From Spirochaetales bacterium (lineage in GTDB: Bacteria; Desulfobacterota_D; UBA1144), in NCBI GenBank assembly GCA_002730475.1, contig PCAG01000037.1, positions 1 to 32,084 of the forward strand: a stretch of DNA of 32,084 bases, given 5' to 3'. How positions within the stretch are numbered: position 1 is the first letter of the stretch; the number at the start of each line of letters is the position of its first letter. A program made the translations under genes and the position numbers. Under the pieces are notes generated by a model. It saw nothing but the letters and a program-made list of their open reading frames with translations, was not told the origin of the DNA and did not search any database. Below, one piece after another: positions 11,614-28,669 of the stretch.

Positions 11614-11799
11614 TCAGTGTGATTTCTTACTTCTATATTGTGGCTTCCTGCTGCGTTGTACTACAGAAAACAGTCTCAACGTGGCACTATTGGGTTTTCT
11701 TATTAGTCCGAGTTGCTGGATTTCGTAAAACCTCGCCTCCTTCCTCAATCCAAGGAAAGATATACAAGCCCTAGAGAGTCTAGTAAGGACAGTAGCCAT
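11614..11799 (-). CDS. Putative 61-residue leader ORF upstream of the Cld-fold gene
   Basis: A 61-codon frame opens at the ATG of GCTATGG, nine bases after a -10-like TATCCT (11809-11814), and ends 32 bases before the Cld-fold gene. The product is rich in arginine and lysine (for example LGLRKEARFYE and RSRKPQYRSKKSH) and has no recognisable domain. With transcription starting next to the ATG, translation would be leaderless. It may be a leader peptide, a small basic protein or a chance frame in an otherwise 322-base gap; there is no independent evidence of translation. Confidence 0.3.
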   Translation of the reverse strand: MATVLTRLSRACISFLGLRKEARFYEIQQLGLIRKPNSATLRLFSVVQRSRKPQYRSKKSH

Positions 11800-11870
11800 A
11801 GCCTCAATAGGATACACAAAGAATTATGCCTTAGTCAATACCTATACCCTGTTTTTGACAATCAATAAAA
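11796..11870. repeat. Promoter module, copy A of a 75-bp intergenic duplication
   Basis: This segment aligns without gaps to 22334-22408: 68 of 75 bases are the same and all seven differences are transitions. It contains, on the minus strand, -35 TTGACT (11833-11838) and -10 TATCCT (11809-11814) with an 18-base spacer, pointing to the Cld-fold gene. It also holds the site TTAGTCAATACCTAT (11831-11845) and an outward TTGACA (11855-11860) that has no good -10 and no gene to serve. It appears to be a duplicated bidirectional promoter in which only one side is still used. Confidence 0.8.
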
Positions 11871-11903
11871 ATTGATCCAGGAGTGGCTTTCAAGTAACGA
11901 TTC

Positions 11904-12821
11904 CTACGAAACATACATTCTATGAATAAAATCAGTCACTTCATCAACAAGATGCTTGTTGTTGTTGTCTCTTCTTGTGACCAATTCCACTTTTCTCGAG
12001 TAACTCTTCGGCGCAGGAAAATAGACCAGATTATCATCATCTTTTTTGGCAATAGCAGGTATTAAGGTAGCATTGTTGCTTCTCTCTACAATTGTTCTTG
12101 CACTTTCCATATTATTTGTCTTGATTGCCTTTTTGGGATCGACCAATGACCCATCTTCGAATATCTGAGAAATCTTTTCAGATATAGAACTTTCGCCATG
12201 CAATAAAACAAAATTTATTTCTGGGTGGAATTTGAGTTTTTTGAAATCCGTATCATCTATGAACGGATTGTCCTTTGATAATGCAAAATACAAGTTTTCA
12301 GTAAATAATTCTTTTCTATTTATTAAGGGATTTAAAGTATTGATGAAACACTCCTCACAATGGATACTTCTATCTGGGGAACTTATAATTGCCAAATCAA
12401 CATGTCCCGCCATCAGCAATTGCATCAAACCATCATTTGTTGATTCAATGTAATTTACTTTCAGATTGGGGTTTACTTTTTCTATACCATTTTGTATGCG
12501 TGGAAAGAGATAGGGGCCGATTGTAAAAAGTGCACCTATATCGAGATTAAATACTGTTTCGAGTTGACTGTTTTTGGCCATTGTGTGTATATTGCCTATA
12601 GAGTTCTGAACATCAATCAACTGAGGAAGTATTTTTGATCCAAATTCTGTTAATTTCACCCCTTTACTGTTCCTAATAAATATCTTGGAACCCAATTCGG
12701 ATTCAACTTTTTTAATTTGGGCACTTAGGGTTGGTTGACTAACGGAACACGCTCTGGCGCCTTCGGCAAAGCTTCCAAGTCGCGCTGAGGTTATAATATA
12801 TATAATGTCTTTTGAGTTCAT
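11904..12821 (-). CDS. LysR-family transcriptional regulator (OxyR-like)
   Basis: A 305-residue regulator with an N-terminal winged helix-turn-helix (residues 1-60; GSFAEGARACSVSQPTLSAQIKKVE) and a LysR substrate domain. LLMAGHVDLAI and the late NNMESARTIVERSNNATLIPAIA resemble OxyR-type members. The redox cysteines of OxyR are not evident at the usual place (segment LLHGESSISEK). Instead C155-E-E-C158 is present, which could bind a metal or respond to oxidation. Two OxyR-like ATAG-N7-CTAT sites lie in its own promoter, and related sites lie before five neighbouring transcription units, so it is the best candidate for a local nitrogen-oxide regulator. The ATG follows a -10-like box without a ribosome binding site. 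Confidence 0.88.
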   Translation of the reverse strand: MNSKDIIYIITSARLGSFAEGARACSVSQPTLSAQIKKVESELGSKIFIRNSKGVKLTEFGSKILPQLIDVQNSIGNIHTMAKNSQLETVFNLDIGALFTIGPYLFPRIQNGIEKVNPNLKVNYIESTNDGLMQLLMAGHVDLAIISSPDRSIHCEECFINTLNPLINRKELFTENLYFALSKDNPFIDDTDFKKLKFHPEINFVLLHGESSISEKISQIFEDGSLVDPKKAIKTNNMESARTIVERSNNATLIPAIAKKDDDNLVYFPAPKSYSRKVELVTRRDNNNKHLVDEVTDFIHRMYVS

Positions 12822-12828
12822 ATATACT

Positions 12829-12873
12829 ATAGAGTATACCTATACACAAAAGAAAGCCATAGCCCTTGACTAT
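12829..12873 (-). promoter_or_regulatory. Two OxyR/LysR-type operators before the LysR gene
   Basis: ATAG-AGTATAC-CTAT (12829-12843) and ATAG-CCCTTGA-CTAT (12859-12873) are two ATAG-N7-CTAT sites with a T-N11-A core, centred 30 bp apart just upstream of the regulator start at 12821. The established OxyR half-site is ATAGntnnnanCTAT. This is the layout of an autoregulated LysR promoter. Confidence 0.6.
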
Positions 12874-12971
12874 AAGAAATTTTATCCTATAATTACTGTT
12901 AATAACCCTCTTCCTAATCAGAGCCATAGCAATTGTTCTCTACGGACAAGGTCTTTTTGAGGAGGGTTTTT

Positions 12972-13757
12972 TTAAAAATCCTTCTTTTTGAATAGATATT
13001 TCCCAATATATACAAGTAGAACAATCCATATGGCGTTTGCAATAAAGCACAATGCTATAGAAAATCCACCCTCGAAGAAACTTTTAAACAGTCCTCCTGT
13101 ATATCCTAAAAGAACTGGATTATCTAATAGAAAAAGTGTCTGGATTCTAGATAAATCTATCGGGTTAAGGAATATCATGGCTAACAAAAATTTTTGAATT
13201 TCATAATCTCTAAAATAAATGATTATAGAAAGTAAAATGAAATCAAACAAGAACGCATAGAAAAACCAGACTGTAAGACTTACGACTATACCTTGAAATT
13301 TGTCATTGACAAGTAGTCCAATCACGACTGATAAACACGAAAAGAAAATAACCACATTCATACTAGCTGCCACTACATAAAGTAATTTATAAATTTCCGT
13401 TCCAAGAATAGGAAACCTAAATAGAAAAGAAGGCAAGCTACCTAATAGGAAAAATAGGGAAACAAGGATAATGTATGTAAAAATCTTACTTAAATAGACC
13501 TCGGATCTACTAATGGGATTTGACAACAAAAGTGAGATATAGTCTTTTGTCGAGTAAAACCCATTCATTCCCATTACAAGTGCGAGAAGAGGAAGAAGAT
13601 ATAAGCTAATACTTAGAAGAGTTAACAAAACTTGATCTATATCAGAAGCAAATCTAACTAACATTTCTATACAAAAAAAGAATAGGACTGGGGCAATGAA
13701 GATAAACTTCGATTTCAACAGAATTTTTATTTCGGCTTTAACCAGTTCTTTAAACAT
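12972..13757 (-). CDS. nosY: NosY, permease of the Nos ABC transporter
   Basis: An inner-membrane protein of about 261 residues with six predicted helices, of the ABC-2 permease type (SKFIFIAPVLFFFCIEMLVR, then GMNGFYSTKDYISLLLSNPISRSEVYLSK, typical of NosY). With NosF and NosD it forms the transporter needed to assemble the copper centre of N2O reductase. The ATG at 13757 overlaps the last codons of nosF by eight bases and is preferred over an upstream ATG at 13838 that would lie deep inside nosF. It is the last gene of the nos operon. Confidence 0.88.
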   Translation of the reverse strand: MFKELVKAEIKILLKSKFIFIAPVLFFFCIEMLVRFASDIDQVLLTLLSISLYLLPLLALVMGMNGFYSTKDYISLLLSNPISRSEVYLSKIFTYIILVSLFFLLGSLPSFLFRFPILGTEIYKLLYVVAASMNVVIFFSCLSVVIGLLVNDKFQGIVVSLTVWFFYAFLFDFILLSIIIYFRDYEIQKFLLAMIFLNPIDLSRIQTLFLLDNPVLLGYTGGLFKSFFEGGFSIALCFIANAIWIVLLVYIGKYLFKKKDF

Positions 13758-14454
13758 ACTCATCAAAGAGATTAGAAATTCCACCTTCCAAGTTTCTCGA
13801 ATCCTTATTTGCATGAAGTTCCTTGATGCTAGAATCAAGGATTATTTGACCATTGTTCATAATCAAAATATTATCGACCAAAGGCTCTAGCTTGTTAAAA
13901 TAATGTGATGTAATCAATATGGTTTTTTGCTTCTTGGCCTCTTCTAGAAAACCAATCAGAGTTTTTGTAGATTTTTGATCTAACGAAACAAAAGGCTCGT
14001 CCAGCATCACCAGATTAGGCTCGGTTATAAAGACAAGGGATAAAAGGAATTTCTGTTTCATTCCTCCAGATAAATTAGAAAATTTAATTGATTCGAAACT
14101 ACGGATATCGAACAAACTGCGTAGTACATTGCTAGGCTGCTGAATTTTTTTAATGTTTAGAAATAAGTCTTCTATGTCCTTAACTATCATATCGCCAAAT
14201 ATATCGTTATCTTGAGGGAGGTATGATATGTGCGCTTTGTAGGAATCCCCTATATCGTCCACATCTTTTCCATTAGAAATGATTTTGCCAGAATCCTGAT
14301 TGACCAAGCCCATAATTATCTTTAGGAGTGTGGATTTGCCACAACCATTTGGTCCCATCAAAAGAGAAAGCTCGTTTTGTCTAACTTTTAAATTGACGCC
14401 AGATAGAACATCCTGTTTCGTAAAACTTTTATAAATTTGAAAACATTCTATCAT
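13750..14454 (-). CDS. nosF: NosF, ATPase of the Nos ABC transporter
   Basis: A 234-residue ABC ATPase. Walker A is GPNGCGKST (residues 34-42), the signature is LSGGMKQK (128-135), Walker B is LVMLDEP with D152 and E153, and the switch histidine is in ITSHY near 184. It powers the NosFY-NosD complex that supports CuZ maturation of N2O reductase. It starts six bases after nosD and overlaps nosY, as usual in a tightly coupled operon. Confidence 0.92.
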   Translation of the reverse strand: MIECFQIYKSFTKQDVLSGVNLKVRQNELSLLMGPNGCGKSTLLKIIMGLVNQDSGKIISNGKDVDDIGDSYKAHISYLPQDNDIFGDMIVKDIEDLFLNIKKIQQPSNVLRSLFDIRSFESIKFSNLSGGMKQKFLLSLVFITEPNLVMLDEPFVSLDQKSTKTLIGFLEEAKKQKTILITSHYFNKLEPLVDNILIMNNGQIILDSSIKELHANKDSRNLEGGISNLFDEYV

Positions 14455-14460
14455 GACAAC

Positions 14461-15720
14461 CTAAGAATGGAGCACTTTGGGATTTTGGTCAATATATGGG
14501 GACTTGATTATTGCGGGTAAATAAATCTCCATTAAATCTATTATGTGAACCATATACGACTCGAGAAACAATACAGAATTAGGGAATTTCTCTACTATCA
14601 TGGAATATAGTCTGACAGGATAATGAGGAATGTCTCCCAAGTTGTCGTTATCCAGATCGTAACCTACATAATCATCCCAAAAGTTTTCATTAAATTTGTT
14701 ACTCTTATCAGCTCTATTGGTTGTCACATCAAAGACATTGGCAATAAAACGATTTTGTTCGAAATGGTTTTTGTAAGAACTACCAAGTATCCGAATGCCA
14801 ATACCATTGTTGATAAAATTATTTTTTTTAAATTTTATTTCATCTGAACTATCCATATAGACCGAGACAAAGTTTCCATAAAAAGAATTATTAGATATCT
14901 CAGATGATTTAATGTCCTTAAGAAGCAGAGAAGACGTCCCAGGATTAGTATGGTACTCAAAAGTATTTCCAACCATATTTATACTTCGTGAATACATTAC
15001 AGCTACTCCTCCAGCATTATTGACAAATTGATTGTCGACAAAAGAGTTCCCATCCGAGAACATAAAATGTAGACCATATCGAAAATTGTTCAAGGATTTA
15101 TTATTTTCGATTACTATGTTCTCAGCAAATTCAAAATATAGACCGTCTCTATGACTTACAATTGTATTGTTTTTAATTACGATATCGTTAGAATTCCATA
15201 GGTGGATACCGTTTCCCATTTTTGACTGTCGAAAAGAAGTATTTAGATTTTCTATATAATTTTTTAAAATGTAACTATTAGAAACTTCCTCTAAGTGGAT
15301 ACCAAAAAAGCTGTCCAAAATTGTATTATTAATTATTTTACAATTTGATACTTTAAAAAGCCTTATTGCTGAGAAATCTCGCATGTGACCTCTCCCGGAA
15401 TTTTTAATTGTTAAATCTTCTAATGTTACATTGTCAGAAATTATCGTGATAATTTGACCTTGGTTTTGCCCATCTATTATAGAGCCTGGAAGGCCTCTGA
15501 TGGTCAATGGCTTGTCAATTACAATATCCGTTACTTTATGATGACCAGCCACCACAATTATATCGTTGGCTTTTGACGATTTAAGAATTTCCTGAAGTGA
15601 ACGATTCGTGTTCTCGGTGTAAATTGTTTCCGCATACGGTTCGACAAACAAGGCAAAAAAGAAAATAATTACAAAAAAACTTCTTATCATGTTGTTGAAT
15701 ATTTGTTTTATGTTAATCAT
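14461..15720 (-). CDS. nosD: NosD, periplasmic copper-site maturation protein
   Basis: A 419-residue exported protein with a signal peptide (about residues 1-30, ending PYAET) and a right-handed parallel beta-helix made of repeated N-rich turns (for example SNCKIINNTILDS, IVIKNNTIV, IVIENNKSLNN). The NosD-type C-terminus WDDYVGYDLDNDNLGDIPH is present. In the family it cooperates with NosF and NosY and receives copper from NosL. The length is normal. Twelve bases separate it from nosL. Confidence 0.93.
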   Translation of the reverse strand: MINIKQIFNNMIRSFFVIIFFFALFVEPYAETIYTENTNRSLQEILKSSKANDIIVVAGHHKVTDIVIDKPLTIRGLPGSIIDGQNQGQIITIISDNVTLEDLTIKNSGRGHMRDFSAIRLFKVSNCKIINNTILDSFFGIHLEEVSNSYILKNYIENLNTSFRQSKMGNGIHLWNSNDIVIKNNTIVSHRDGLYFEFAENIVIENNKSLNNFRYGLHFMFSDGNSFVDNQFVNNAGGVAVMYSRSINMVGNTFEYHTNPGTSSLLLKDIKSSEISNNSFYGNFVSVYMDSSDEIKFKKNNFINNGIGIRILGSSYKNHFEQNRFIANVFDVTTNRADKSNKFNENFWDDYVGYDLDNDNLGDIPHYPVRLYSMIVEKFPNSVLFLESYMVHIIDLMEIYLPAIIKSPYIDQNPKVLHS

Positions 15721-15732
15721 TACTGTTTTTTC

Positions 15733-16221
15733 TTAATGCTTATGGTCAGACCCATGAACCGACAATGAACCGAGAAGCTCTTCCCAGGACAATCGAACTG
15801 AATCCTTAAACTCTTCCTGTAGTTTTGGATTAGATTTGTTCAGAACTATTAAACCACTTCTCATGGGAGTTTTGATGCGTTTACTTTTAATAACATACGA
15901 GTTCTCCGATTTCACAAGTTCTTTCGTAAAATAATCCACAAAAGTCACTTGTGATAATTGATGATGAGGGTTTTTAGCAAGAAAATTTGTTAGGCATCCC
16001 ACATCATCAAATTTAAATACTATGCCTTTCTTTGTTACCATCCCTGCCGCAAAACTAGAATCGTAAACGAGCATTTTACAGTAATTGCATTTATCTGTAC
16101 CTTCTTTAATGATAACTCCATTGTCTTTTGAACAAGACAAGAGAGGAATTGTCAGCAGCAAGCAAAAAAAGGAGAGTAATACCCTTGGTACGCCTCTCCT
16201 AAGCCTTATTTTTTGTAGCAC
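15733..16221 (-). CDS. nosL: NosL, copper-chaperone lipoprotein
   Basis: A 162-residue lipoprotein. The lipobox ends LLSC with C30 as lipid site, and the copper-binding motif is C45-NY-C48-KM. A conserved aromatic core follows (FKFDDVGCLTNFL, VDYFT). NosL delivers Cu(I) for N2O reductase assembly. The C-terminus is histidine-bearing (VHGSDHKH). Its start overlaps the upstream membrane-protein gene by 23 bases, so translation is probably coupled; a later start is possible but would cut into the signal sequence. Confidence 0.92.
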   Translation of the reverse strand: MLQKIRLRRGVPRVLLSFFCLLLTIPLLSCSKDNGVIIKEGTDKCNYCKMLVYDSSFAAGMVTKKGIVFKFDDVGCLTNFLAKNPHHQLSQVTFVDYFTKELVKSENSYVIKSKRIKTPMRSGLIVLNKSNPKLQEEFKDSVRLSWEELLGSLSVHGSDHKH

Positions 16222-16873
16222 GAATCACTTCCTCTGCTTTTAGCTTCTTCTCATAATCTTTTGTTCTTCTAGAATCCTTACGGGATTCGAATATTATAGT
16301 CAACAGAATTATCAACCCCGATAGACACATTGTCAAAACACCGTACGATGGAAAGGAAAAGACCGTAAAATTTAGTAGATTTTTTTCTCCAAACATTGGT
16401 GGTTGGTACGACATGCCCGGAATTTTAATCGAAGCCATTGGATCAAGGTTGTGTCCATAATCATATAGCCAAAGATAAAGATCGAGCATACTCAACAAAC
16501 CAAAAACAGCAAGGATAACAAGTAGGAAGATTAAATGTTTTTTGTTAAAATTTGAGTAACGAATATACAGACCGTAAACAACTACTGACAACAGAATATA
16601 TTTGAGAAATCTAAATTCTGGAATACTTTCAATATGGATTGGGGCCATCCCTATGTAATGATTTAGGATATTAACATTTTGTAGTGTGCTCGCTTCTCCA
16701 CCTCTTATGGTATCAATATATATAAATAATGACAGACCATTAGGATATTGAGGTGCCGTCAAATGTATTTGCCACAAAGGCAAGAAAATCGAAATAGCCA
16801 AAAGAATAAGGGCACCCAGAAAAAAATCCCGAGGGGGTAAATCAATTCTGGGCACCCTTAGATTAAGACTCAT
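16199..16873 (-). CDS. Nos-cluster membrane protein (NosB-like position)
   Basis: A 224-residue membrane protein with about four or five helices. The first is followed by PLWQIHLTAPQYPNGLSLFIY and then NILNHYIGMAPI, a pattern I associate with membrane proteins found right after clade II nosZ genes. It starts 15 bases after nosZ and overlaps nosL. Its biochemical role is not established; the histidines and the conserved periplasmic loop could serve copper handling or electron transfer to NosZ. The NosB name is used only by position. Confidence 0.75.
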   Translation of the reverse strand: MSLNLRVPRIDLPPRDFFLGALILLAISIFLPLWQIHLTAPQYPNGLSLFIYIDTIRGGEASTLQNVNILNHYIGMAPIHIESIPEFRFLKYILLSVVVYGLYIRYSNFNKKHLIFLLVILAVFGLLSMLDLYLWLYDYGHNLDPMASIKIPGMSYQPPMFGEKNLLNFTVFSFPSYGVLTMCLSGLIILLTIIFESRKDSRRTKDYEKKLKAEEVIRATKNKA

Positions 16874-16888
16874 ACCTGCTTCCCCAGC

Positions 16889-18862
16889 CTACTTATTCGC
16901 CTTAATCTTTACTTTAGAATTCTTTGGTGAAACCCTTATATATCCTTGCATTTCTTGGTGAAGCGCAGAACAAAAGTCAGTACAGTAGAACGGATATACT
17001 CCAATTCTTTTTGGTTTCCAAACCAACGTACGTGTATCACCTGGCATTACTAATAACTCGGCGTTTTCTGCTCCTTGAACTGCAAAACCATGCGGAACAT
17101 CCCAGTCTTGTTCGAGATTTGTCACATGAAAATATACTGTATCGCCTAGTTTGATTCCTTCTATATTGTCAGGAACAAAATGTGTTCTGATTGCTCCCAT
17201 ATAGATATGAACATCAGACCCTTTTCTTACTACTCGTGTTTCATCAAAACTCTTAATTGCAAATGGATTCTTGTTCGCGGCAAGATCAAATATCTTTATT
17301 TGATTTCTTGTTATCAAATCCGCCGGCGCAGCTTGAGCATAATGGGGCTCTCCCTGAGTGGGAAAATCAAGAAGCAATTCCATCTTGTTTCCACTTATAT
17401 CAATCAACTGTGCCGAATGAGCTAACTCCGGACCAGTTGGAAGATATCTATCTTTGGTGGTTTTATTCAATGCAACGAGATATTTGCCATACGGCTTTGT
17501 GGTATCTCCACCTGGTATTAGCAAATGTCCAATTGAGTAATAAACAGGGATTCTATCGACCACCTTCCACTCGCCCAATTTCCATTTTATTACCTCAGAA
17601 CTTATATACACAGAGGTATAAGCATAGCCTTTGTCATCAAATTCCGTATGAAGTGGTCCTAATCCGGGGTCCTCAACTTCACCAGCGATAATTTCGTCAT
17701 AATCTAGTACCGGAATTTTTCCTTCGTATCCCTCAAAGGCCTTTTCTTTTATTGCCTTTTGCATTTTTGTAAATGAGTGCACAGGGATTATCGTGGATAA
17801 TTTTCCACCCCCAACTATGTATTCCCCTGAAGGATCGACATCGACTCCATGAGGAGATTTCGGTGTTGGCAAATAATAAACTAGTCCCGGGTGCTCATGT
17901 GCATCAAGTACGGTTACTTCTTTTTTTTCTTCACTCCTTGCTATCCTTGTATCTTTATCCATCACATTCCTGAAATAACTTGTTCGTAATTTTGTGCCTT
18001 TTCCTTTGGCAACCAATTCTTCCGCATATTTCCAATTTACTGCGGCTATATAATCTTTATCTCTTTGAGAAGCACCTCGTTCTTTTATTGTATGAGCTTG
18101 TTCAACGTTATAGGTAGAGAAAAAAGCCCAGCCGTGTGATTTCTTTTTGCCCAAATGTGTTTTGTCATAATCAAAACCAGGGACAAGAATTTGAAATGCC
18201 ACGGACATGTGTCCTTCGTCATCCACTTTCACAAAAGTTAACACCCCTTTAAAATTTTCTTTATATGAATCGATTGGAACATCTCTTTGTGGAGTAGGGA
18301 CGCTAAATCTCGTTGCCGCAACCAAATATTCTGTATTTTGAGAAATAAATGGTGAAGCATGGTTTCCTGAAACATGAGGAATCTCAAGAATTTCTTCCGT
18401 TTCAAAAGTCGTTAAATCTATTCTCGCTATTCTAGGCGTATTGTTATCGTTAATAAATAACCACCTTCCATCTATTTTTCCTCTTGTTTGTGAGAGCTGC
18501 GGATGGTGAGCATCTCCCCACGGAATCTCACCCCAAGAAGTTTTAAAAAAGGCTTTTGTCTCTTCTGAGAATCCATAGCCATTTTCAGGGAATAGAGAAA
18601 AAACGGGAATCGTCTTCAACAATCTCCCGGAAGGCAGTCCGTATACTGTAACGTTACCACTGTAGCCTCCGGACATAAAAGCGTAAAATTCATCATATTC
18701 TCCAGGGGGTACATATACCGCCTTTGCGTGTTCCGTGGTTTTCGAATCAAAATGAGTAGCGTTCGCACTTATGCTATAACTTAAAAGAGGTGCTCCTAGC
18801 AAAAGAGCGGTTGCTATTGCCAGATGCCAAACTGGTCTTGCCAAACGTGATATTAAAATCAT
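16889..18862 (-). CDS. nosZ: Nitrous oxide reductase NosZ, clade II (Sec-type)
   Basis: A 657-residue periplasmic enzyme reducing N2O to N2. The signal peptide (about residues 1-35) has no twin-arginine motif, which with the gene order marks clade II. The seven-bladed propeller carries CuZ-type histidines in DAHHPQLSQTRG, HVSGNHASP, DAHEHPG, PHGVDVDPSG and PLHTEF. The C-terminal cupredoxin domain has the CuA ligands H591, C627, C631, H635 and M638 (CTDFCSALHQEM). A good ribosome binding site (AGGAG) precedes the ATG. The mRNA leader is about 135 bases and contains a 45-codon ORF ending on the nosZ start. The operon downstream holds all maturation genes, so the enzyme is likely functional. Confidence 0.97.
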   Translation of the reverse strand: MILISRLARPVWHLAIATALLLGAPLLSYSISANATHFDSKTTEHAKAVYVPPGEYDEFYAFMSGGYSGNVTVYGLPSGRLLKTIPVFSLFPENGYGFSEETKAFFKTSWGEIPWGDAHHPQLSQTRGKIDGRWLFINDNNTPRIARIDLTTFETEEILEIPHVSGNHASPFISQNTEYLVAATRFSVPTPQRDVPIDSYKENFKGVLTFVKVDDEGHMSVAFQILVPGFDYDKTHLGKKKSHGWAFFSTYNVEQAHTIKERGASQRDKDYIAAVNWKYAEELVAKGKGTKLRTSYFRNVMDKDTRIARSEEKKEVTVLDAHEHPGLVYYLPTPKSPHGVDVDPSGEYIVGGGKLSTIIPVHSFTKMQKAIKEKAFEGYEGKIPVLDYDEIIAGEVEDPGLGPLHTEFDDKGYAYTSVYISSEVIKWKLGEWKVVDRIPVYYSIGHLLIPGGDTTKPYGKYLVALNKTTKDRYLPTGPELAHSAQLIDISGNKMELLLDFPTQGEPHYAQAAPADLITRNQIKIFDLAANKNPFAIKSFDETRVVRKGSDVHIYMGAIRTHFVPDNIEGIKLGDTVYFHVTNLEQDWDVPHGFAVQGAENAELLVMPGDTRTLVWKPKRIGVYPFYCTDFCSALHQEMQGYIRVSPKNSKVKIKANK

Positions 18863-18996
18863 TTTTGTAACTCCTTTTTGTGTGAAATTTTATGTGAAAT
18901 CAAACTAAACGGTGTGCAAGAAAAGACTACTTTTTCGAAAAAAGAAAAGAGCGAAAAACAGGGTATCGAAAGTGAGAAAATCTTTCCCAGAACCAT
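18859..18996 (-). CDS. Putative 45-residue leader ORF coupled to nosZ
   Basis: A frame of 45 codons opens at the ATG of GCTATGG (18996), ten bases after the -10 TAAGAT. It runs through the whole nosZ leader and stops at TGA 18861-18859, overlapping the nosZ start as ATGA. The predicted peptide (MVLGKIFSLSIPCF..., ending HKKELQK) has a hydrophobic first half and no known domain. Leaderless translation of it would deliver ribosomes to the nosZ start. It may be a coupling or sensing leader, or a chance frame in AT-rich DNA. Confidence 0.35.
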   Translation of the reverse strand: MVLGKIFSLSIPCFSLFSFFEKVVFSCTPFSLISHKISHKKELQK

Positions 18997-19006
18997 AGCA
19001 TGATTA

Positions 19007-20755: not shown

Positions 20756-20789
20756 ATAAACCTAGTTCTTCTCAAGCACCTTGTATTTC

Positions 20790-20939: not shown

Positions 20940-22242
20940 ATGGATCGGCAACCTCAGGATGAAAGTATTTAAAACAATTACGGTGCTGGTCAGTATATGC
21001 GTTTGGTGGATAATATTTGTCATAAAACTCTAAATCCAAATGATGAGCCTGGAAGACCAATCTCATGTACATCGGATCCACGAATGCCGGGAACCTTCCA
21101 TAGGTATTATAAATATAATTTATAACATCTTTTACGATTCTCCTGGTCTTTTCGGTAGGCCTCGGAGCTTCCATTAATTGCTTGTCGGGCTCCAAATAAG
21201 GATGAGGCATGTCTTGTTCCCTATCCCAAGTTTTGTACTTGTTCTCATAGAAAGCATCAAACGCATCATCCATGTTTTTATAATAAGGAGGGCAATACGC
21301 TTCAAATACTCCATCCCGACCGACGGGAATGCCTTGAGGCTGCTCAATCCCCTTTCCTTCTTTTGGAGAAACGAACCTAAAACCTAGCCCTTTGAATTGC
21401 TCAGGATTTGAACCGAGGGTGTATCTGGGCAACAGGCCTGTAAATGTCCACCCACCAAGACCAAGTGCTTGGAGAGCCAAGGCCATGTTCTGACAAATAA
21501 AAGCTTGTTCAACATTTAGTCCAGTTAAGATTCTAGCTTCTAATTCAAACAAGCTAATTTTTACATCCGATTTAATTCTACCTTGAGCAATCCATTCATC
21601 CTGTCCGGCAGAACATTTCTCTATATCATCCACGATTTGAAAACCATAGCTGTTACTACAATATAAGCACAACAAATTTAAATATTCTTCAGTAATATCA
21701 GTAACCGGAATAAACAAACTGCTTCCAGGCTTATTAGTATTCCATTCGTTAAAAGTAAAGAGGCCGGGCATTTTGTCTGGAATATCTGGTCTTCCATCCT
21801 CTATTTTTAATAGGCTTGTTTTGTATAAGCCCAATAGCTTTTCAATTCGTTCGTCACGAGATAAGTCATAAAAAAGGTTGAGCTCTTTATCTTTTGGCAG
21901 AAGCTTGTTCGCTTCTATCATATACAATCCTTTGTCGTTTGAAAGAAAAAGCTCGGTACTGTGAGGATTGCACGCTGAAGGCCAAGTTCGACCTGTCCAT
22001 TGACAAAGCAAATTTATTGCGTCTGGTGGCAAATCGGCTAGACACAAACCCGTAAGACCAGTTCCGGCCCAGGTCAACATCGCCTCTTGGAATTCGCTTA
22101 GAGGATATGGTTTTTTGTCCGATGTAAAAGATAAATTAGTACCTTCTAACTTAAATCCTAAGCCAAATCTGCGAGAACGTCTATTGAATAAAGCATCGAA
22201 TAGAGGATATTTGAAAGCAGCGTCGTAATCGACTTTGTCCAT
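20929..22242 (-). CDS. Long nitroreductase-fold protein, paralogue 1 (uncharacterised)
   Basis: A 437-residue cytoplasmic protein. The N-terminal LFDALFNRRSRRFGLG and the middle QNMALALQALGLGGWTFTG match the FMN-binding parts of the nitroreductase superfamily, but it is about twice the usual length. The C-terminal half has distinctive blocks: GRDGVFEAYCPPYYKNMDDAFDAF and YGRFPAFVDPMYMRLVFQAHHLDLEFYDKYY. These recur in the paralogue at 27290-28588. The gene has an AAGGAG ribosome binding site and is followed by a small basic frame and nnrS. It diverges from the siroheme reductase gene across a promoter module with a LysR-type site. The reaction is unknown; a flavin-dependent step on a nitrogen compound is inference from context. 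Confidence 0.8.
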   Translation of the reverse strand: MDKVDYDAAFKYPLFDALFNRRSRRFGLGFKLEGTNLSFTSDKKPYPLSEFQEAMLTWAGTGLTGLCLADLPPDAINLLCQWTGRTWPSACNPHSTELFLSNDKGLYMIEANKLLPKDKELNLFYDLSRDERIEKLLGLYKTSLLKIEDGRPDIPDKMPGLFTFNEWNTNKPGSSLFIPVTDITEEYLNLLCLYCSNSYGFQIVDDIEKCSAGQDEWIAQGRIKSDVKISLFELEARILTGLNVEQAFICQNMALALQALGLGGWTFTGLLPRYTLGSNPEQFKGLGFRFVSPKEGKGIEQPQGIPVGRDGVFEAYCPPYYKNMDDAFDAFYENKYKTWDREQDMPHPYLEPDKQLMEAPRPTEKTRRIVKDVINYIYNTYGRFPAFVDPMYMRLVFQAHHLDLEFYDKYYPPNAYTDQHRNCFKYFHPEVADPYAK

Positions 22243-22295: not shown

Positions 22296-22337
22296 TTATG
22301 TACAAGAAGGCTCTTCAATGCTCCTCCTAATCACCAT
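22296..22337 (-). CDS. Putative 13-residue leader peptide
   Basis: GCTATGG follows the -10 box TATTCT, with nine bases between the box and the ATG, which opens the frame MVIRRSIEEPSCT. It ends at TAA 22298-22296, 53 bases before the nitroreductase-like start. It occupies the same place as the leader frames before nosZ, bioB and the Cld-fold gene. There is no evidence of translation beyond this position. Confidence 0.25.
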   Translation of the reverse strand: MVIRRSIEEPSCT

Positions 22338-22408
22338 AGCCCTAATAGAATACACAAAGAATTGTGCCTTAGTCAATACCTATACCCCATTTTTGACAAT
22401 TAATAAAA
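22334..22408. repeat. Promoter module, copy B of the 75-bp duplication (bidirectional)
   Basis: Partner of 11796-11870 (68 of 75 bases the same, no gaps). Minus side: -35 TTGACT (22371-22376), 18-base spacer, -10 TATTCT (22347-22352), driving the nitroreductase-like gene. Plus side: -35 TTGACA (22393-22398) and -10 TAGAAT (22417-22422, just outside the repeat), driving the siroheme reductase. The site TTAGTCAATACCTAT (22369-22383) lies between, centred 19.5 bp from the plus-side -35 centre and overlapping the minus-side -35, so one bound dimer could affect both genes. Confidence 0.75.
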
Positions 22409-22420
22409 GAAGAAGGTAGA

Positions 22421-24610
22421 ATGATTATCACTGTTATGTGTGTACATTATATTTTGCCAGACAATTTAACTGATGAGATAAGTGATTTTTCGGAATCCGT
22501 AAGAAATCATATTGCCCTTAGAGAGAAGGGGCAAGTTCGCATTGAAGAGGAAACGAAGTTCAAAGCCCTAAGAGTTTCTCATGGACTATACGAACAAAGA
22601 GAAAAAGACACTTATATGCTACGAATTAGATGCCCAGGAGGATTGATTAATCCCGACCAATTAATAGTCGTGGCCAATCTGGGTTTACTTTATGGATCTG
22701 GAGATGTTCATTTCACAACACGACAGGAAGTTCAACTCCATCAAATTAACCTTAAAGACATACCTGAAATCTTGTCCAATCTTTTTAATGCTGGATTGAC
22801 TTCAAGAGGAGGCGGAGGCAATACCGTTAGGAATATCCTCTGCCCGGCGGATTCAGGACTAACAACAAGAGATATTTTTGATGTCTCTCCATACGCAGTG
22901 GGGTTAACATCAAAATTAATTTCAGAAAGCGAATCCTGGAATTTGCCAAGAAAATTTAAAATAGCTTTTTCAGACGACCTATCCGATATAGCTTATTCTA
23001 AATCGACCTGTTTGGGTTTTATCGCTTCAATTAAAGATGGTTTAGAGGGTTTTGAAGTTCATTGTGGTGGTGGACTTGGTAGGCATCCTGCTATCGCCAA
23101 ACCTTTATTGGATTTTATTCCCAAAGAGAATCTTTATTACGCAACAAAGGCGCTACTTAAAGTTTACGATAGACATGGGAACAGAAAGAGTAAGCATTCG
23201 AGTAGAATCAAATTTCTTGTTTCCAAAATAGGGATAGATGAACTTTCTACATTGTTCCAAGAAGAGTATGCAGAATTACAAAAAGATAAAGGACTAAAGA
23301 TAGATACTGAAGAAAGTGCTTTTGCTAATAAAGCATTATCATCGGATCTTAAAGTTGAGGAATTGGACAATGTAGATATTAATTTTGACCGCTTTGAAAA
23401 ATGGAAAGAACGGTTTGTAACACCTCAAATACAAGGAGGCTTGGCGGCTGTAAAGATAATGATCAGATCGGGGGATTTAGAGACCCCAGACGCAGTTGAA
23501 CTAAGCAGTTTTCTCAAAAACTTTGGTAGCAACAATATACGATGCGACAGGGATCAAAATATTTTACTCAGAAATATTCCATTGAAATATCTAACAAATT
23601 TGTTTTTAATAGTAAGCAAATTCAAAAATAGCATGGTCGATACGCCTATCTTTTTAGGGGAGATGATTAATTGCACCGGTGCTCAAACTTGTCAATTGGG
23701 GATATGTAAGCCAAGAGGTCTGGTTGAAGCTATCCATGAAGAACTTCTATCTAATAAGAATCTAGAACTTGATGAGCTAAAGAATTTCAGTATAAATTTA
23801 TCTGGTTGCCCAAATTCTTGCGGGATGCATCATATCGCCGACATAGGGTTCTTCGGTAAGGTAGGTAGAAAAGACAGCAAGATATATCCTGCTTACAATG
23901 TTTTATTGGGAGCTGAGATGGACAAAAAAGAGCCTCAGTACGCTAAATTGGTTTCCTCTTTGCCTGCAAACAGAATCCCTGATTTGTTAAGTATCTTTTT
24001 AGAAGACTGGCTAGAACACAAGAAATCAAAGAACTTAAGCTACAAAGAGTATTTAGAAGCAAGGGGGACTCAGTTCGTTCAAGATTTATGCTCTACGTTT
24101 AATGACGAGATGCCCTCTATGGAAGAGAATATCAACGCTTACGTAGATTATACTCCCCCAGGACACGAAAAAAACACGGAGCCTTTGTCTTTAAAAGATA
24201 TCGGCCAAGGAGAGTGCTCCGCGGGCGTGTTCGACATGATTGGAGTGGATAAAGGTTTAATTGAAAAAAATTTAAAATCTCTTAAAAATAACGGTGCTGC
24301 TCCAAATGAGGAGAGGACAATTATTCTTAAAGATACACTTCTACATTCAGCTAGAATGCTACTTATTACAAAAGGAATTTCAACTACCAAGGAAGAAAAA
24401 ATATTTTCATCTTTCAAAAAGCATTTCATAGTTGGGGGTTTGATATCAGATAAATATCTTGTTCTCATGGATGAAAAAGTAAGAGGGGCTCAAAACAATC
24501 CTCAAGAAATTATGGATTTCGAAGAACTAATAGTAGGACTAGCAAGTGACGTAATAAATATTTACGACGAAATGGATGATTCGTTAAGATCGCTAAAATC
24601 AAACAACTAG
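22421..24610 (+). CDS. Siroheme [4Fe-4S] nitrite/sulfite reductase with extra C-terminal domain
   Basis: A 729-residue protein. The ferredoxin-like half domains and siroheme domains span about residues 1-555. Cluster/siroheme ligands are C418-x5-C424 (NCTGAQTC) and C463-x3-C467 (SGCPNSC). RGGGGNTVRN and the stretch TRQEVQLHQI are typical of nitrite/sulfite reductases. Residues of about 560-729 form an extra helical domain after GECSAGVFDMIG, similar to the HEPN-like tails seen on some sulfite reductase homologues. The family makes six-electron reductions, nitrite to ammonia or sulfite to sulfide; context favours nitrite. An alternative ATG at 22436 fits a leaderless transcript, because the first ATG overlaps the -10 box. 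Confidence 0.88.
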   Translation: MIITVMCVHYILPDNLTDEISDFSESVRNHIALREKGQVRIEEETKFKALRVSHGLYEQREKDTYMLRIRCPGGLINPDQLIVVANLGLLYGSGDVHFTTRQEVQLHQINLKDIPEILSNLFNAGLTSRGGGGNTVRNILCPADSGLTTRDIFDVSPYAVGLTSKLISESESWNLPRKFKIAFSDDLSDIAYSKSTCLGFIASIKDGLEGFEVHCGGGLGRHPAIAKPLLDFIPKENLYYATKALLKVYDRHGNRKSKHSSRIKFLVSKIGIDELSTLFQEEYAELQKDKGLKIDTEESAFANKALSSDLKVEELDNVDINFDRFEKWKERFVTPQIQGGLAAVKIMIRSGDLETPDAVELSSFLKNFGSNNIRCDRDQNILLRNIPLKYLTNLFLIVSKFKNSMVDTPIFLGEMINCTGAQTCQLGICKPRGLVEAIHEELLSNKNLELDELKNFSINLSGCPNSCGMHHIADIGFFGKVGRKDSKIYPAYNVLLGAEMDKKEPQYAKLVSSLPANRIPDLLSIFLEDWLEHKKSKNLSYKEYLEARGTQFVQDLCSTFNDEMPSMEENINAYVDYTPPGHEKNTEPLSLKDIGQGECSAGVFDMIGVDKGLIEKNLKSLKNNGAAPNEERTIILKDTLLHSARMLLITKGISTTKEEKIFSSFKKHFIVGGLISDKYLVLMDEKVRGAQNNPQEIMDFEELIVGLASDVINIYDEMDDSLRSLKSNN

Positions 24611-24650
24611 ATTAAAATTCAAACTATAATTTACGGTAGCAGTATTTGAA

Positions 24651-26249
24651 CTATGTCTCTTTTCCGTAATCGTATGTCGTTCCCTCTAGCGTCGGCATTT
24701 CATCAAAATTCAACGTCGGCGGAGGAGTTGCTGTTCGCCACTCCAAAGACTTCGATTTGTACGGATTACGCTCTGTAGTTGCGGATACCGGCCTTAGAAG
24801 AGTGTGGAGCATAACCAGTATCCCTATGGTAAGGATATAAGTACCTACAGTTGATAGTTGATGAATAAATTCAAATTGAGGATCGTAATTAAAATATCTT
24901 CGTGGCATCCCCCTGGTTCCAACTACAAATAGAGGATAGAAAGTTAGGTTGAATCCAATAAACGTGAGTACAAAAGCAATTTTTGCTTTTGTTTCATCAA
25001 ATACCTTTCCCCACATTTTAGGGTACCAGAAATGCACCGCTGAGAAAAAGCCAAAAACCGTTCCTCCAAACATTGTGTAATGCATATGGGCAACAACAAA
25101 ATAAGTATCATGAAGATATATATCTGTAGCCAATGCGGACATATGCATACCAGTAGTACCACCAATTGTAAAAAGAAAAATAAAAGCCAGAGTATGTAAC
25201 ATAGCTGCGCTAAGTTCAATGGACCCCTTGTACATTGTAGCGACCCAATTAAAAACTTTAATTGCTGTAGGAATTGCAACTAGAAACGTTATAACGGAAA
25301 AGACGACATTCATGAATGCTGACTGGCCACTTGTAAACATGTGGTGCCCCCAGACTAAGAAACTTATAACAGCTATACCCACACTTGAGTAGGCTATTGC
25401 CTTATAGCCAAAAATTGGCTTTCTTGAAAAAACCGGTAGAACCTCTGAGACAACACCCATGGCAGGAAGAATCATTAAATATACAGCGGGGTGTGAATAA
25501 AACCAGAAGAAGTGTTGGAATAGGACTGGATCGCCTCCCTTGGCCGGATCAAAAAATCCAAGCCCAAACCACCTTTCAAAAATTAATAAAACTAGGGTGA
25601 TTCCAACAACTGGGGTCGCTAAAACCTGTATGATAGCCGTTGCATAACTTGCCCAGCAAAACAATGGTAGATTGTTCCACGTCATTCCTGGTGCTCGAAG
25701 CTTATGTATTGTAACAATAAAATTAATCCCTGTTAGAATAGATGAAAAACCCAAAAAGAATACGCCCGTAGTGATCATAATCACGTTTGTCTGGCTGTCA
25801 ATTGAATACGGAGTGTAAAAAGTCCAGCCGGTATCAACTGGAGCAGCGAGGGAAACCAGGCATATGATTGCCCCTATACAGAAAAGCCAAAAACTCAGTA
25901 GATTCAATTTGGGGAAGATTACATCTCTGGCGCCAATCATTAGTGGAATTAAGAAATTTCCAAAACTTGCAGCAATCCCTGGAATGATGAATAGGAAAAT
26001 CATTATCGCTCCATGAAGCGTGAATGAGACATTGTACAATTGGGCATTCATTATAGTTTGACTACCAGTAAGATGCTCGGTCCGAACTAAAATAGAAAAA
26101 AGCCCACCTACTAAGAAAAAAACTGATACAGCAATCAGATACATAACCCCTAATCTTTTATGATCAAGGGTGTAGAACCATGTCTTCCAAAAGGGAATAT
26201 CCGAATCTTTACCAGCTGTTAGATAATTATCACCAATTATTTCACTCAT
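24651..26249 (-). CDS. coxA: Cytochrome c oxidase subunit I (A2-type heme-copper oxidase)
   Basis: A 532-residue, twelve-helix subunit that reduces O2 and pumps protons. The low-spin heme ligands are H79 (FTLHG) and H390; the active-site heme ligand is H388 (VAHMHY). CuB is bound by H253, H302 and H303 (WGHHMF), with cross-linked Y257. The D-channel glutamate of A1 enzymes is absent: the motif is FYSHPAVY with YS in its place, the mark of A2-type oxidases such as caa3 enzymes. It follows coxB by 20 bases. No subunit III or IV gene follows; the next gene is convergent. Confidence 0.96.
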   Translation of the reverse strand: MSEIIGDNYLTAGKDSDIPFWKTWFYTLDHKRLGVMYLIAVSVFFLVGGLFSILVRTEHLTGSQTIMNAQLYNVSFTLHGAIMIFLFIIPGIAASFGNFLIPLMIGARDVIFPKLNLLSFWLFCIGAIICLVSLAAPVDTGWTFYTPYSIDSQTNVIMITTGVFFLGFSSILTGINFIVTIHKLRAPGMTWNNLPLFCWASYATAIIQVLATPVVGITLVLLIFERWFGLGFFDPAKGGDPVLFQHFFWFYSHPAVYLMILPAMGVVSEVLPVFSRKPIFGYKAIAYSSVGIAVISFLVWGHHMFTSGQSAFMNVVFSVITFLVAIPTAIKVFNWVATMYKGSIELSAAMLHTLAFIFLFTIGGTTGMHMSALATDIYLHDTYFVVAHMHYTMFGGTVFGFFSAVHFWYPKMWGKVFDETKAKIAFVLTFIGFNLTFYPLFVVGTRGMPRRYFNYDPQFEFIHQLSTVGTYILTIGILVMLHTLLRPVSATTERNPYKSKSLEWRTATPPPTLNFDEMPTLEGTTYDYGKET

Positions 26250-26269
26250 ATAAACATCATTCTCCTAAA

Positions 26270-27247
26270 TCACCTCAACACCTTTATGTATTCAATCATT
26301 GAGGTAATTTGTTTGTCAGTAAGGACTCCTTTGTATGCCGGCATCACGGGCTGATAGCCTTTAACTATTTTTGCAGATGGAATTTCTATTGATGCTCTTA
26401 AATAATTTTCATCAGCTATACTAGAAGTGCCATCTTCAAATTTTCTTTTTTTGCCAAACAAACCTTTCCAGGTGGGACCCACTCCTGAAGAGCCATCAAT
26501 GCTATGACAAGCATTGCAACCGTTTTTTAAATACAAATCTTTTCCTTGTTCTTTTAAGTTGCCACTAGCAACCACTGATTTTTTCGAATCTTTGCTTCCT
26601 TTTTCCCATGCGTAGAAGTCCTCTTCAGAAAGAACATGGACAATCCCTTTCATGTCTGAGTGGGCCACCCCGCAATATTCGGCACAATAGATTACGTAAT
26701 CCCCAACTTTGTTAGGTGTAAAATTAAGAAAGGTGTACATATTGCCAACTACGTCTTGTTTGACCCGAAAAGCGGGAACATAAAAACTATGTAGGACATC
26801 TTCTGAAGTCATTACCAACCTTACAGGTTTGTTTACTGGCAGATAAAGTTCGTTGAATGTTTTTTTACCATCTGAATAATCAAAACTCCACATCCATTTC
26901 GTTCCAGTTACATTAATTTCGTATCCAGCCGGATCTATTTTTTGAGTTTGCAGATAAGGGAATAACGCAACAAAAAAAATTATAAAAACAAGGATAGTGG
27001 GGGCAACCGTCCAAGTCGTCTCCAGAAACGCATTGTGCCTCAAGTCAGGTGTGTAATCATCATCGGTTTTCTTTTTATATTTAATACAGAAAAAGATTAG
27101 TATCAATCCAATAGCTACCGTAAAAAAAATCGATATCCAAGATATGAATGCCAATACGTTATCAACAGACGCAGCTACAGTGGACGCTTGAGGAGGCACC
27201 CAAGAAATGATAGAAAAATTAAAGAAGTGCAACAGAGTTTGAATCAT
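26270..27247 (-). CDS. coxB: Cytochrome c oxidase subunit II fused to cytochrome c (caa3 type)
   Basis: A 325-residue protein. Two membrane helices (about 30-55 and 80-98) are followed by a cupredoxin domain with CuA ligands H153, C188, C192, H196 and M199 (CAEYCGVAHSDM). A C-terminal cytochrome c domain has the heme motif C244-NA-C247-H248 and a likely axial methionine in QPVMPAYKG. The fusion defines caa3 oxidases, which take electrons directly from soluble cytochrome c or a membrane complex. It lies 42 bases after the second nitroreductase-fold gene and no separate promoter is obvious, so the oxidase genes are probably expressed from that gene's promoter. Confidence 0.95.
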   Translation of the reverse strand: MIQTLLHFFNFSIISWVPPQASTVAASVDNVLAFISWISIFFTVAIGLILIFFCIKYKKKTDDDYTPDLRHNAFLETTWTVAPTILVFIIFFVALFPYLQTQKIDPAGYEINVTGTKWMWSFDYSDGKKTFNELYLPVNKPVRLVMTSEDVLHSFYVPAFRVKQDVVGNMYTFLNFTPNKVGDYVIYCAEYCGVAHSDMKGIVHVLSEEDFYAWEKGSKDSKKSVVASGNLKEQGKDLYLKNGCNACHSIDGSSGVGPTWKGLFGKKRKFEDGTSSIADENYLRASIEIPSAKIVKGYQPVMPAYKGVLTDKQITSMIEYIKVLR

Positions 27248-27289
27248 AGCGCTCGATATCGGAAGAAAGCTGTAATAAATATTTACAAA

Positions 27290-28588
27290 TTACAGTTTCT
27301 TATTCCAATTCCTCCTGTGTTCCTTATGTAATTTCGAATATGTCCCTTCGGAATAAAATTTATCGTAAAAATCCAAATCAATAACATGTGATTGGACCAT
27401 CATCCTTGTATACATTGTGTCAGAAAAAGCTGGAAAGCTTCCGTAAGTTTCATATATATAGTTACACAAATCTTTTACAACCATAATTTCTTTTTTGGTT
27501 GGTCTCCTTGTTGCATCCAAGACCGCTTGAGATTCTTTATATGGCATCTTGTCGGTTTCCCAGTTCGTCCATTTCATGTCATTGAACGCATCAACAGCTT
27601 CACCCATGTTCGCATAATAAGGAGGGCAAAATCCGACAAAATGTCCGTCCAACCCTACAGGAATTGCCGTAACTGTAGACCCCCAATCGCTATCTGGGTG
27701 ATCTGAATCTATACATTTAAAACCTAAGCCATTTGAGTCTGGATCCGCACCCAACATATATCTGCTAGCAAAACCTGTAAAAAGCCAGCCACCTAACCCG
27801 AGTGCTTGTTGAGCAAGGTTAACATTCTGACAAAATAGTGGTTGTTCCGCCATATAAGCACTCGCAAACCTAATTTCGGCTTCTATCAAATTAAGAGATT
27901 TGTCTTTATTAAGAAAACCGTTTTTGAGCCACTTTTCAGTTCCTGCTGGTCGTAAATTTTTAAGTTCGTCTAAAAAATTATATCTATGCCCTATTCTCTC
28001 ATAGAAAAACAAAATATTTATTAACCCAGCGGATAAATCTGTTACCGGTATCATAAGTGTCGATCCAGGTTTGTTAACATTCCATGTATTATGTATAGCT
28101 AGCCCCGGTGGCTCCTTCGCTAATTCGGCTCTCTTGTCGCTTATTTTTATCCGACATTCATCAAAAAACTGAAGTATGACATCAAGCCGTTTTTCTGGTT
28201 TTAAAGACTTAATCCCTCCTAAACTATTCATAATCTTGTCGTTTTGTTTGATCATGTATGTCCCATTATCGTTTGTATAAAAAATCTCTGTTCTATGTAT
28301 ATCCCCAAGAGACGGAATCGTTTTGCTAACAAATTTAACTTCTAAATCTAATCCTTTTTCGGGAGGAAAATCTGACAGATTTAAACCCTTCATTCCGCCC
28401 CCCGCCCAAATCAATAAGGCTTCCTCGAGTTCGGTTAAGGGTACTGGCTTATGTGAAGATTTATATTTTAGAGGACCGGAAGGAATCTCGCCGCCCATTT
28501 GAAACCTTCTAGATCTTCTATCTAGAAGAGACTCGAATAATGAGTAACCAAAAAACTCCTCTAACCCCTTCGTGCGTTCTCGAGCCAT
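27290..28588 (-). CDS. Long nitroreductase-fold protein, paralogue 2 (uncharacterised)
   Basis: A 432-residue paralogue of the 437-residue protein. Shared blocks are LFESLLDRRSRRFQMG, WAGGGMKGLNLSDFPP, WNVNKPGSTLMIPVTD, QNVNLAQQALGLGGWLFTG, CPPYYANMGEAVDAF and YGSFPAFSDTMYTRMM. The FMN-binding nitroreductase elements (RRSRRF and the QALGLGGW helix) are intact. The ATG lies in GCTATGG, 11 bases after a TAAGAC -10 box and without a ribosome binding site, so the mRNA is probably leaderless. It heads an operon with coxB and coxA. The function is unknown; placement ahead of an oxidase suggests a redox role coupled to respiration, which is inference. Confidence 0.8.
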   Translation of the reverse strand: MARERTKGLEEFFGYSLFESLLDRRSRRFQMGGEIPSGPLKYKSSHKPVPLTELEEALLIWAGGGMKGLNLSDFPPEKGLDLEVKFVSKTIPSLGDIHRTEIFYTNDNGTYMIKQNDKIMNSLGGIKSLKPEKRLDVILQFFDECRIKISDKRAELAKEPPGLAIHNTWNVNKPGSTLMIPVTDLSAGLINILFFYERIGHRYNFLDELKNLRPAGTEKWLKNGFLNKDKSLNLIEAEIRFASAYMAEQPLFCQNVNLAQQALGLGGWLFTGFASRYMLGADPDSNGLGFKCIDSDHPDSDWGSTVTAIPVGLDGHFVGFCPPYYANMGEAVDAFNDMKWTNWETDKMPYKESQAVLDATRRPTKKEIMVVKDLCNYIYETYGSFPAFSDTMYTRMMVQSHVIDLDFYDKFYSEGTYSKLHKEHRRNWNKKL

Positions 28589-28599
28589 AGCACTAATTA

Positions 28600-28669
28600 G
28601 TCTTATGCGAATTCAAGACATTGTCAACAAGTGTTTTAAGTTAAAACAGAGCATAGGTATATTGACTAA
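28600..28669 (-). promoter_or_regulatory. Promoter of the nitroreductase-like/coxBA operon with LysR-type site
   Basis: Minus strand: -35 TTGACA (28622-28627), 16-base spacer, -10 TAAGAC (28600-28605). The sequence TTGACAATGT, the 16-base spacer and the TAAGA -10 repeat the nosZ promoter closely. A site ATAGGTATATTGACTAA (28653-28669) matches the other operators but has two extra bases between the arms and lies 17 bp farther out (36.5 bp from the -35 centre). Confidence 0.5.

Follow-up and report, generated by a model that had tools for sequence, protein, structure and literature searches.

The combination of a LysR-type regulator with a divergently transcribed small RNA is already known, and the gene set described here is a variant of it. 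It is located on contig PCAG01000037.1, in a single 32,084-nt stretch ("the window" in what follows), where a lysR gene (11904..12821, minus strand; 305 amino acids) faces a candidate small RNA and lies near the nitrous oxide (N2O) reductase gene nosZ. In a comparable system, gcvB encodes a small RNA. The GcvA-gcvB pair is among the LysR systems analyzed in PMC5002191, which describes three ATAG-n7-CTAT repeats centered at -66, -44, and -35 for the oxyR-oxyS region of Escherichia coli and two main sites, at -64 and -33, for OccR. For tandem OxyR sites of the ATAG-N7-CTAT type, an interval of 7 to 10 bp is given in PMC8787470. The window resembles oxyR-oxyS in that an OxyR-branch LysR gene faces a candidate small RNA, with ATAG-N7-CTAT sites at -64 and -34 and one site over the predicted start of the regulator gene. 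It differs from that system in the absence of the redox Cys pair, the presence of a CxxC insertion, and the lack of a clear middle site at -44, as well as in the proposed targets, which are genes of N2O respiration and heme/flavin chemistry. With GcvA-gcvB and OccR, it shares a LysR gene divergent from its target and sites near -65 and -35 with a separation of ∼30 bp, but the regulator branch and the target genes are different.

Paracoccus carries a nosZ of the clade other than the one considered here (clade II). Studies of nosZ control reportedly deal with regulators of the Crp/FNR family (FnrP/NNR, FixK2, and DNR; PMC3541799, PMC5582078, and PMC5398030). A study of clade II nosZ control likewise points to Crp/FNR factors (PMC11539149). 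Control by the local LysR protein would be similar in co-regulating nosZ with other respiration genes, but FNR/DNR-type boxes (TTGAYNNNNRTCAA, that is, TTGAT-N4-ATCAA-type, with up to one mismatch) are not enriched in the window, where 5 were found versus 7.7 expected, all of them within called genes; a LysR-type site is seen instead. As for small RNAs, sRNA-29 of Paracoccus denitrificans is described as acting on denitrification via a GntR-type regulator, and the same source names small RNAs in carriers of clade II nosZ as future work (PMC6686037). The candidate described below is likened to sRNA-29, which works through that GntR-type regulator, by role only. Among the literature matches listed, no LysR-controlled nosZ regulon in Dadabacteria was found.

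LysR-type sites and their predicted binder

A preliminary description of this DNA had listed five ATAG-N7-CTAW sites and attributed them to a regulon of the single, OxyR-like LysR protein. All five coordinates are exact. Site A (11831..11845, minus strand; ATAGGTATTGACTAA) precedes cld, sites B1 (12829..12843; ATAGAGTATACCTAT) and B2 (12859..12873; ATAGCCCTTGACTAT) precede lysR, site C (19044..19058, plus strand; ATAGGCATTGCCTAA) lies between nosZ and cytc, and site D (22369..22383, minus strand), between ntr1 and sir, has the same sequence as site A. The two-base-longer version, site E, is also present at 28653..28669 (plus strand), as a 17-bp ATAG-N9-CTAA before ntr2-coxBA. The earlier list had omitted two coding matches, 15138-15152 in nosD and 26354-26368 in coxB, so that the motif occurs at seven distinct places in the window, five intergenic and two coding.

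Our own gene calls leave 2222 nt, or 6.9% of the window, as intergenic DNA. It would be expected to hold 0.18 ± 0.43 such sites, and none of the 2000 dinucleotide shuffles reached the observed five, the largest count being two. Coding DNA, in contrast, contains two matches against 2.1 ± 1.3 expected (200 dinucleotide shuffles). The motif is thus not equally common in coding sequence, and its excess sits in the promoters. When one mismatch to ATAG-N7-CTAT was allowed across the whole window, no excess was seen (21 matches versus 17.95 expected), so the signal resides in those intergenic sites that match exactly. ATAG-N7-CTAT as an exact palindrome has two intergenic copies (12829 and 12859), which makes it joint top among 432 combinations of half-site and gap.

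Sites B1, B2, A, C, and D, all near lysR or its candidate targets, are T-N11-A dyads. In a leave-one-out weight matrix, from which A and D were left out jointly because of their identity, site C ranked 1st, A and D 3rd, B2 5th, and B1 10th over all positions of the window, training sites included. By reading the sequences, site C has two core differences from A/D, each of which completes its dyad. Site E is not a T-N11-A dyad and scores -25 on the 17-bp matrix; it is related to the other sites through longer flanks. A weak second site (19077..19091, plus strand; ATAGATATTGACAAA; matrix rank 11 in the window) is found 33 bp from site C and is a possible activation site for cytc.

The similarity of these regions extends well beyond the sites. 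The promoter blocks of cld (11796-11870, minus strand) and ntr1 (22334-22408) align over 75 bp without gaps and are identical at 68 of the 75 positions (91%), with a score of 115 compared to 26 for the largest of 300 shuffled pairs. The region between cytc and nosZ has a 52-bp block (19027-19078) that is common, with one gap, to the A and D blocks (scores of 61 and 56). Upstream of ntr2, the match covers 29 bp and includes two extra bases (scores of 36 to A and 29 to D). In the cld, ntr1, and candidate small-RNA promoters, the -35 hexamer TTGACT falls within the site in the same register; site A, for example, includes this hexamer and is centered at ∼-35 of the predicted cld start. In nosZ and ntr2, the site is upstream of the -35 hexamer, with centers at ∼-51 and ∼-68 from the predicted starts, respectively. 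A reverse element, TTGACAAT, includes the -35 hexamer of nosZ, and ntr2 likewise has TTGACA; judging from its position, TTGACAAT could serve sir. The proposal that cld, lysR, nosZ/cytc, ntr1/sir, and ntr2-coxBA have a LysR-type site in common in their promoter regions, and that an OxyR-branch LysR gene lies amid the set, therefore holds. Beyond it, the current analysis adds the blocks of 29 to 75 bp, the candidate divergent small RNA with oxyS-like spacing, and the GCTATGG element at predicted mRNA starts. The intergenic sites are likely operators, and their likely binder, given its family, its position, and the enrichment of the sites, is the local LysR protein.

This protein has both LysR domains above the cut-off, the N-terminal HTH_1 domain (PF00126, 57.6 bits) and the LysR substrate-binding domain (PF03466, 62.2 bits). 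Its best NCBIfam models are those of OxyR, albeit with scores (127.8 and 115.1 bits) far below the respective cut-offs (500 and 329). Two of the 100 homologues listed are close (97% identity for P0001 and 70% for P0002), and the others are at 23 to 39%. In an alignment of 32 sequences, the columns of the redox-active Cys199 and Cys208 of E. coli OxyR are occupied by Ser211 and Ile220; P0001 and P0002 have no Cys at these columns either. The TIGPYL motif is retained. The protein also contains a 12-residue insertion with the HCEEC sequence (His154-Cys155-Glu-Glu-Cys158), which is shared with P0001, appears as YCEEC in P0002, and is found in none of the 29 other aligned sequences. Its structure model is confident except near this insertion and in some linkers. 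LysR-family proteins, including OxyR, dominate the best 50 rows of the fold list, but OxyR chains are tied there with other LysR proteins, so the fold fails to single out OxyR. Because the redox-Cys columns hold Ser and Ile and the model scores stay below the cut-offs, this regulator belongs to the OxyR branch but does not have the sensor of OxyR. The OxyR likeness noted earlier applies to the sequence branch, and not to a peroxide-type OxyR, from which the protein differs in Ser211/Ile220 and its presumed sites differ in the 15-bp interval between B1 and B2. The CxxC loop could, speculatively, be the likeliest sensor.

Candidate small RNA and the GCTATGG element

Between lysR and nosY, a small RNA of ∼72 nt plausibly exists at 12900..12971 (plus strand), downstream of a predicted promoter (12866..12893, plus strand) of the TTGACT-N16-TATAAT form that matches 11 of the 12 consensus bases. 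Relative to its predicted start, site B1 is centered at -64, similarly to the first OxyR repeat (IR1), and site B2, which holds the -35 hexamer TTGACT, is centered at -34, similarly to the third (IR3). B2 also covers the predicted lysR start (a weak promoter, score 7), as expected for self-repression. The ends of the small RNA, AACCCTCTTC and GAGGAGGGTT, pair over 10 bp; the second arm enters a run of seven T residues, two of which participate in pairing, and 45 nt separate the arms of the inverted repeat, leaving a long loop. The predicted fold has a z-score of -2.53, with 2 of 200 shuffles being as good. No Rfam family was found at the gathering score in the window, the one match, to a snoRNA, being at chance level (E value of 1.2).

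The small RNA holds CCATAGC (12924-12930), the complement of the heptamer GCTATGG, which occurs in the window in 16 copies versus 2.16 expected. Nine of these are intergenic or located at gene starts, a 17-fold higher density (Fisher p of 2.7e-7). Five of the nine noncoding copies, and none of the seven coding ones (promoter scores of 7 or less), lie 6 to 8 nt after a -10 hexamer in a promoter with a score of at least 8. They mark the predicted mRNA starts of bioB (9748..9754, score 8), cld (11796..11802, score 9), nosZ (18993..18999, score 10), ntr1 (22334..22340, score 9), and ntr2 (28585..28591, score 9), all on the minus strand; the ATG of the last copy is the ntr2 start codon. Another copy (12857..12863, minus strand) is at a possible lysR mRNA start with a weak promoter (score 7). 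With two intergenic-region edges shifted to include the copies at ntr2 and 31947, GCTATGG is found in 7 of the 19 intergenic regions, which ties it with TTGACAA as the most widespread 7-mer.

Pairing of the small RNA was scanned against 50-nt tiles (step of 10) on both strands of the window. Its best trans partner was the ntr2 start (-33.9), followed by a coding site (-33.3) and by the leaders of ntr1 (-31.4) and nosZ (-29.7); background tiles began at -29.2. When the sequences flanking the heptamer were shuffled, the seven leader sites together outperformed the shuffles (1 in 1000). This shuffle was nevertheless dropped as a proof of pairing, given that the control sites proved significant as well. 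Targeting of mRNAs via CCAUAGC/GCUAUGG is accordingly no more than suggested by these data, since control sites, too, pair better than shuffles, and it should be viewed as speculative.

The leaders themselves show no sign of structure: the cld leader has a z-score of +0.97, with 170 of 200 shuffles folding equally well, and those of ntr1, nosZ, and lysR have z-scores of -0.55, +0.54, and +0.06, respectively. As a separate observation, the 5' GCUAUGG of the bioB leader (9631-9757, minus strand) pairs in cis with a CCAUAGC (9647-9653) near the ribosome site; its fold has a z-score of -1.89, equaled by 8 of 200 shuffles. In the nosZ leader (18863-18999, minus strand), a 45-codon frame starts from GCTATGG, and its TGA stop codon overlaps the ATG of nosZ, an arrangement like that of translationally coupled genes.

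Proposed mechanism and competing explanations

The explanation that we favor, with confidence somewhat above even, combines LysR operators with self-repression and a small RNA with its own targets. The ATAG-N7-CTAW sites would serve as operators of the local LysR, overlapping the -35 hexamer in the same register in the cld and ntr1 promoters and in one of the two small-RNA sites. The lysR gene and the small RNA would share one control region, in which LysR, bound to B1 and to B2, which also covers the lysR start, could act as repressor of the lysR gene and as a switch for the small RNA, like OxyR with oxyS. Since the protein lacks the two redox cysteines, the signal is probably something other than peroxide acting via the OxyR disulfide; the CxxC insertion might be its likeliest, if speculative, sensor. 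The least certain step is a further level of control over N2O respiration, in which CCAUAGC of the small RNA could base-pair with the GCUAUGG located at the 5' ends of the mRNAs of nosZ, ntr1, and ntr2, with weaker pairing to that of cld.

Several observations weigh against this explanation, the most general being that all the evidence comes from a single 32-kb window. The spacing of site E is wrong, and the 15-bp interval between B1 and B2 exceeds the 7 to 10 bp of OxyR tandem sites. The small-RNA region contains seven promoter-like matches compared to a shuffle mean of 7.6, the proposed promoter being the best of them, and the terminator scan gave no call at the hairpin, whose loop exceeds the length allowed. 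Of the nine noncoding copies of GCTATGG, four lack a good promoter in register (scores of 5 to 7). A LysR site is absent from two carriers of this element, bioB and the gene at 31947; cytc and sir adjoin a LysR site but have no GCTATGG. Pairing with cld (-23.6), lysR (-22.6), and bioB (-16.0) is weaker than that of background tiles, and the second-best partner is the coding site mentioned above. Taken singly, cld (100 of 1000 flank shuffles), lysR (287), and bioB (378) are unremarkable, and the eight control sites, seven coding ones and 9647, also beat the shuffles (5 in 1000), so that pairing past the 7-mer is not specific. The local similarity between the small RNA and the ntr1 leader (25) is inside the shuffled maximum (26). 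Finally, the 75-bp identity of cld and ntr1 could reflect recent duplication rather than selection.

In the main rival explanation, GCTATGG would have a different role, as the translation start (5'-GCU-AUG-G) of leaderless or nearly leaderless mRNAs, including those of short leader peptides. The operators would then stand, with no post-transcriptional layer. This is a serious contender, although we consider it somewhat less than evenly probable. The long reading frames of ntr2 and of the gene at 31947 do begin with the ATG of a GCTATGG copy. The frames opened by the other copies have 61 codons (cld), 62 (12924, on the strand opposite the small RNA), 45 (nosZ), 13 (ntr1), 11 (bioB), 6 (lysR), and 5 (9647), and the tie with TTGACAA suggests that GCTATGG may be a general start element. 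However, the main genes ntr1, cld, and nosZ start further downstream, the 61-codon cld frame has no Pfam match, for which reason its reading as a known small protein was set aside, and the one match of the nosZ-leader frame (E value of 0.087) is below the cut-off. The copy at 12924 is not explained as a start, because it has no good minus-strand promoter in register (score 6). It is unlikely, in turn, that the shared sites are mimicked by a promoter cassette copied by recombination, with LysR as a bystander or only a local regulator and another factor reading the cassette, for example, via the conserved TTGACAAT. The 75 gapless, 91% identical base pairs of cld and ntr1 run from upstream of the -35 hexamer to the mRNA start and exceed the need of one operator, and TTGACAA is present in seven intergenic regions. 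Still, the B1, B2, and C cores are not copies of A/D and yet fit the leave-one-out matrix, and both core changes in site C complete its dyad.

A true OxyR peroxide regulon, as originally proposed, is improbable. The ATAG-N7-CTAT sites, the oxyS-like spacing, the TIGPYL motif, and the identity of the best NCBIfam models all speak for it, but the scores of these models are far under the cut-offs, both redox-Cys columns are altered, and the site interval is not that of OxyR. Moreover, a Pfam scan of 18 proteins, a subset of those encoded in the window, gave no match to a catalase, peroxidase, or alkyl hydroperoxide reductase family. The idea that a short degenerate word merely recurs by chance in DNA rich in AT can be given very little credence: the lack of enrichment at one mismatch and the two coding matches would fit such an origin, but none of the 2000 intergenic shuffles reached five sites, and the long shared blocks also argue against it.

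Gene content, relatives, and implications

The cld gene (10889..11581, minus strand) codes for a protein of the chlorite dismutase/HemQ fold (PF06778, E value of 5.2e-54) that stays below the cut-off of the HemQ models. The nosZ product (16889..18862, minus strand) is a Sec-dependent (clade II) nitrous oxide reductase (TIGR04246, 912.8 bits with a cut-off of 625). Accessory genes in the same direction (12972..16873, minus strand) encode a membrane protein and nosL-, nosD-, nosF-, and nosY-like products; these names were assigned by position and similarity, and tblastn found counterparts near other nosZ genes. On the other side of nosZ, cytc (19122..19529, plus strand) encodes a small cytochrome c (PF00034) and is followed, before ntr1, by a gene of the NnrS family (19532-20755), whose upstream region (20756-20928) contains no ATAG-N7-CTAW.

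The ntr1 product (20929..22242, minus strand) has no Pfam match but adopts a nitroreductase fold in the structure model; its homologues number in the thousands, several of them named Thermodesulfobacteriota. Its paralogue ntr2 (27290..28588, minus strand; 40% identity) has no Pfam match either, and each of the two genes adjoins a LysR-type site. Between them are sir (22421..24610, plus strand), which encodes a siroheme nitrite/sulfite reductase-like protein (PF01077 and PF03460), and coxBA (24651..27247, minus strand), encoding heme-copper oxidase subunits II (with a cytochrome c domain) and I (PF00115, PF00116, and PF00034). At 729 amino acids, Sir is longer than the NirA-type models (513 to 595 positions), and its C-terminal extension is unmatched. 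Altogether, the target set looks like respiration with N2O and O2 combined with heme/flavin chemistry. Elsewhere in the window, two similar palindromic elements, GGATATTC...ATATCC (3947-3974 and 6806-6833; score of 31), are found just after promoter-like sequences of the genes for a porin-like protein and an FTR1-type iron permease; they resemble a second small regulon.

The relatives of BioB include proteins from Candidatus Dadabacteria (65% identity, P0228) and an organism named as Spirochaetales (64%, P0229), with closer ones at 97, 81, and 72%. Judging from these relatives, the lineage is probably Candidatus Dadabacteria. Marine pelagic members of this group are reported in PMC8115339 to lack denitrification, which is present in some hydrothermal and organic carbon-associated genomes. 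In a NosZ-based scan of a genome collection, the stretches around the best 80 of 579 loci contained no homologue of cld, ntr1, or sir (tblastn, E value of 1e-5 or less), and the only lysR match in them was at 30% identity, in L080. In the genomes behind 70 of these 80 loci, ntr1 had distant matches in 2 of the 20 searched initially and in none of the other 50. A search of 296 genomes of one phylum—a sample that included Ignavibacteria/Melioribacteraceae loci (L016, L024, and L026), with Dadabacteria neighbors outside it—gave one match, at 34%. No relatives emerged from scans based on the LysR alignment, ntr1, sir, NosZ, and BioB. When viral contigs were scanned for the exact motif, three matches were obtained, none of them with the window genes.

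No biological sinks of N2O are described as known other than organisms that carry nosZ (PMC11148229). For the control of clade II nosZ, the LysR operator set and the candidate divergent small RNA supply specific sequences that can be tested. A broader scenario, which we regard as doubtful, is that an OxyR-derived LysR that lost the peroxide-sensing Cys residues and gained the CxxC loop might replace FNR/DNR in a lineage of Dadabacteria and there run N2O respiration of the clade II type, jointly with an OxyS-like divergent small RNA that would pair with a GCUAUGG tag shared by its target mRNAs at their extreme 5' ends. Were this the case, one operator and one RNA tag would mark much of the same gene set. 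The arrangement found here suggests that the oxyR-oxyS layout may be reusable with a different sensor.

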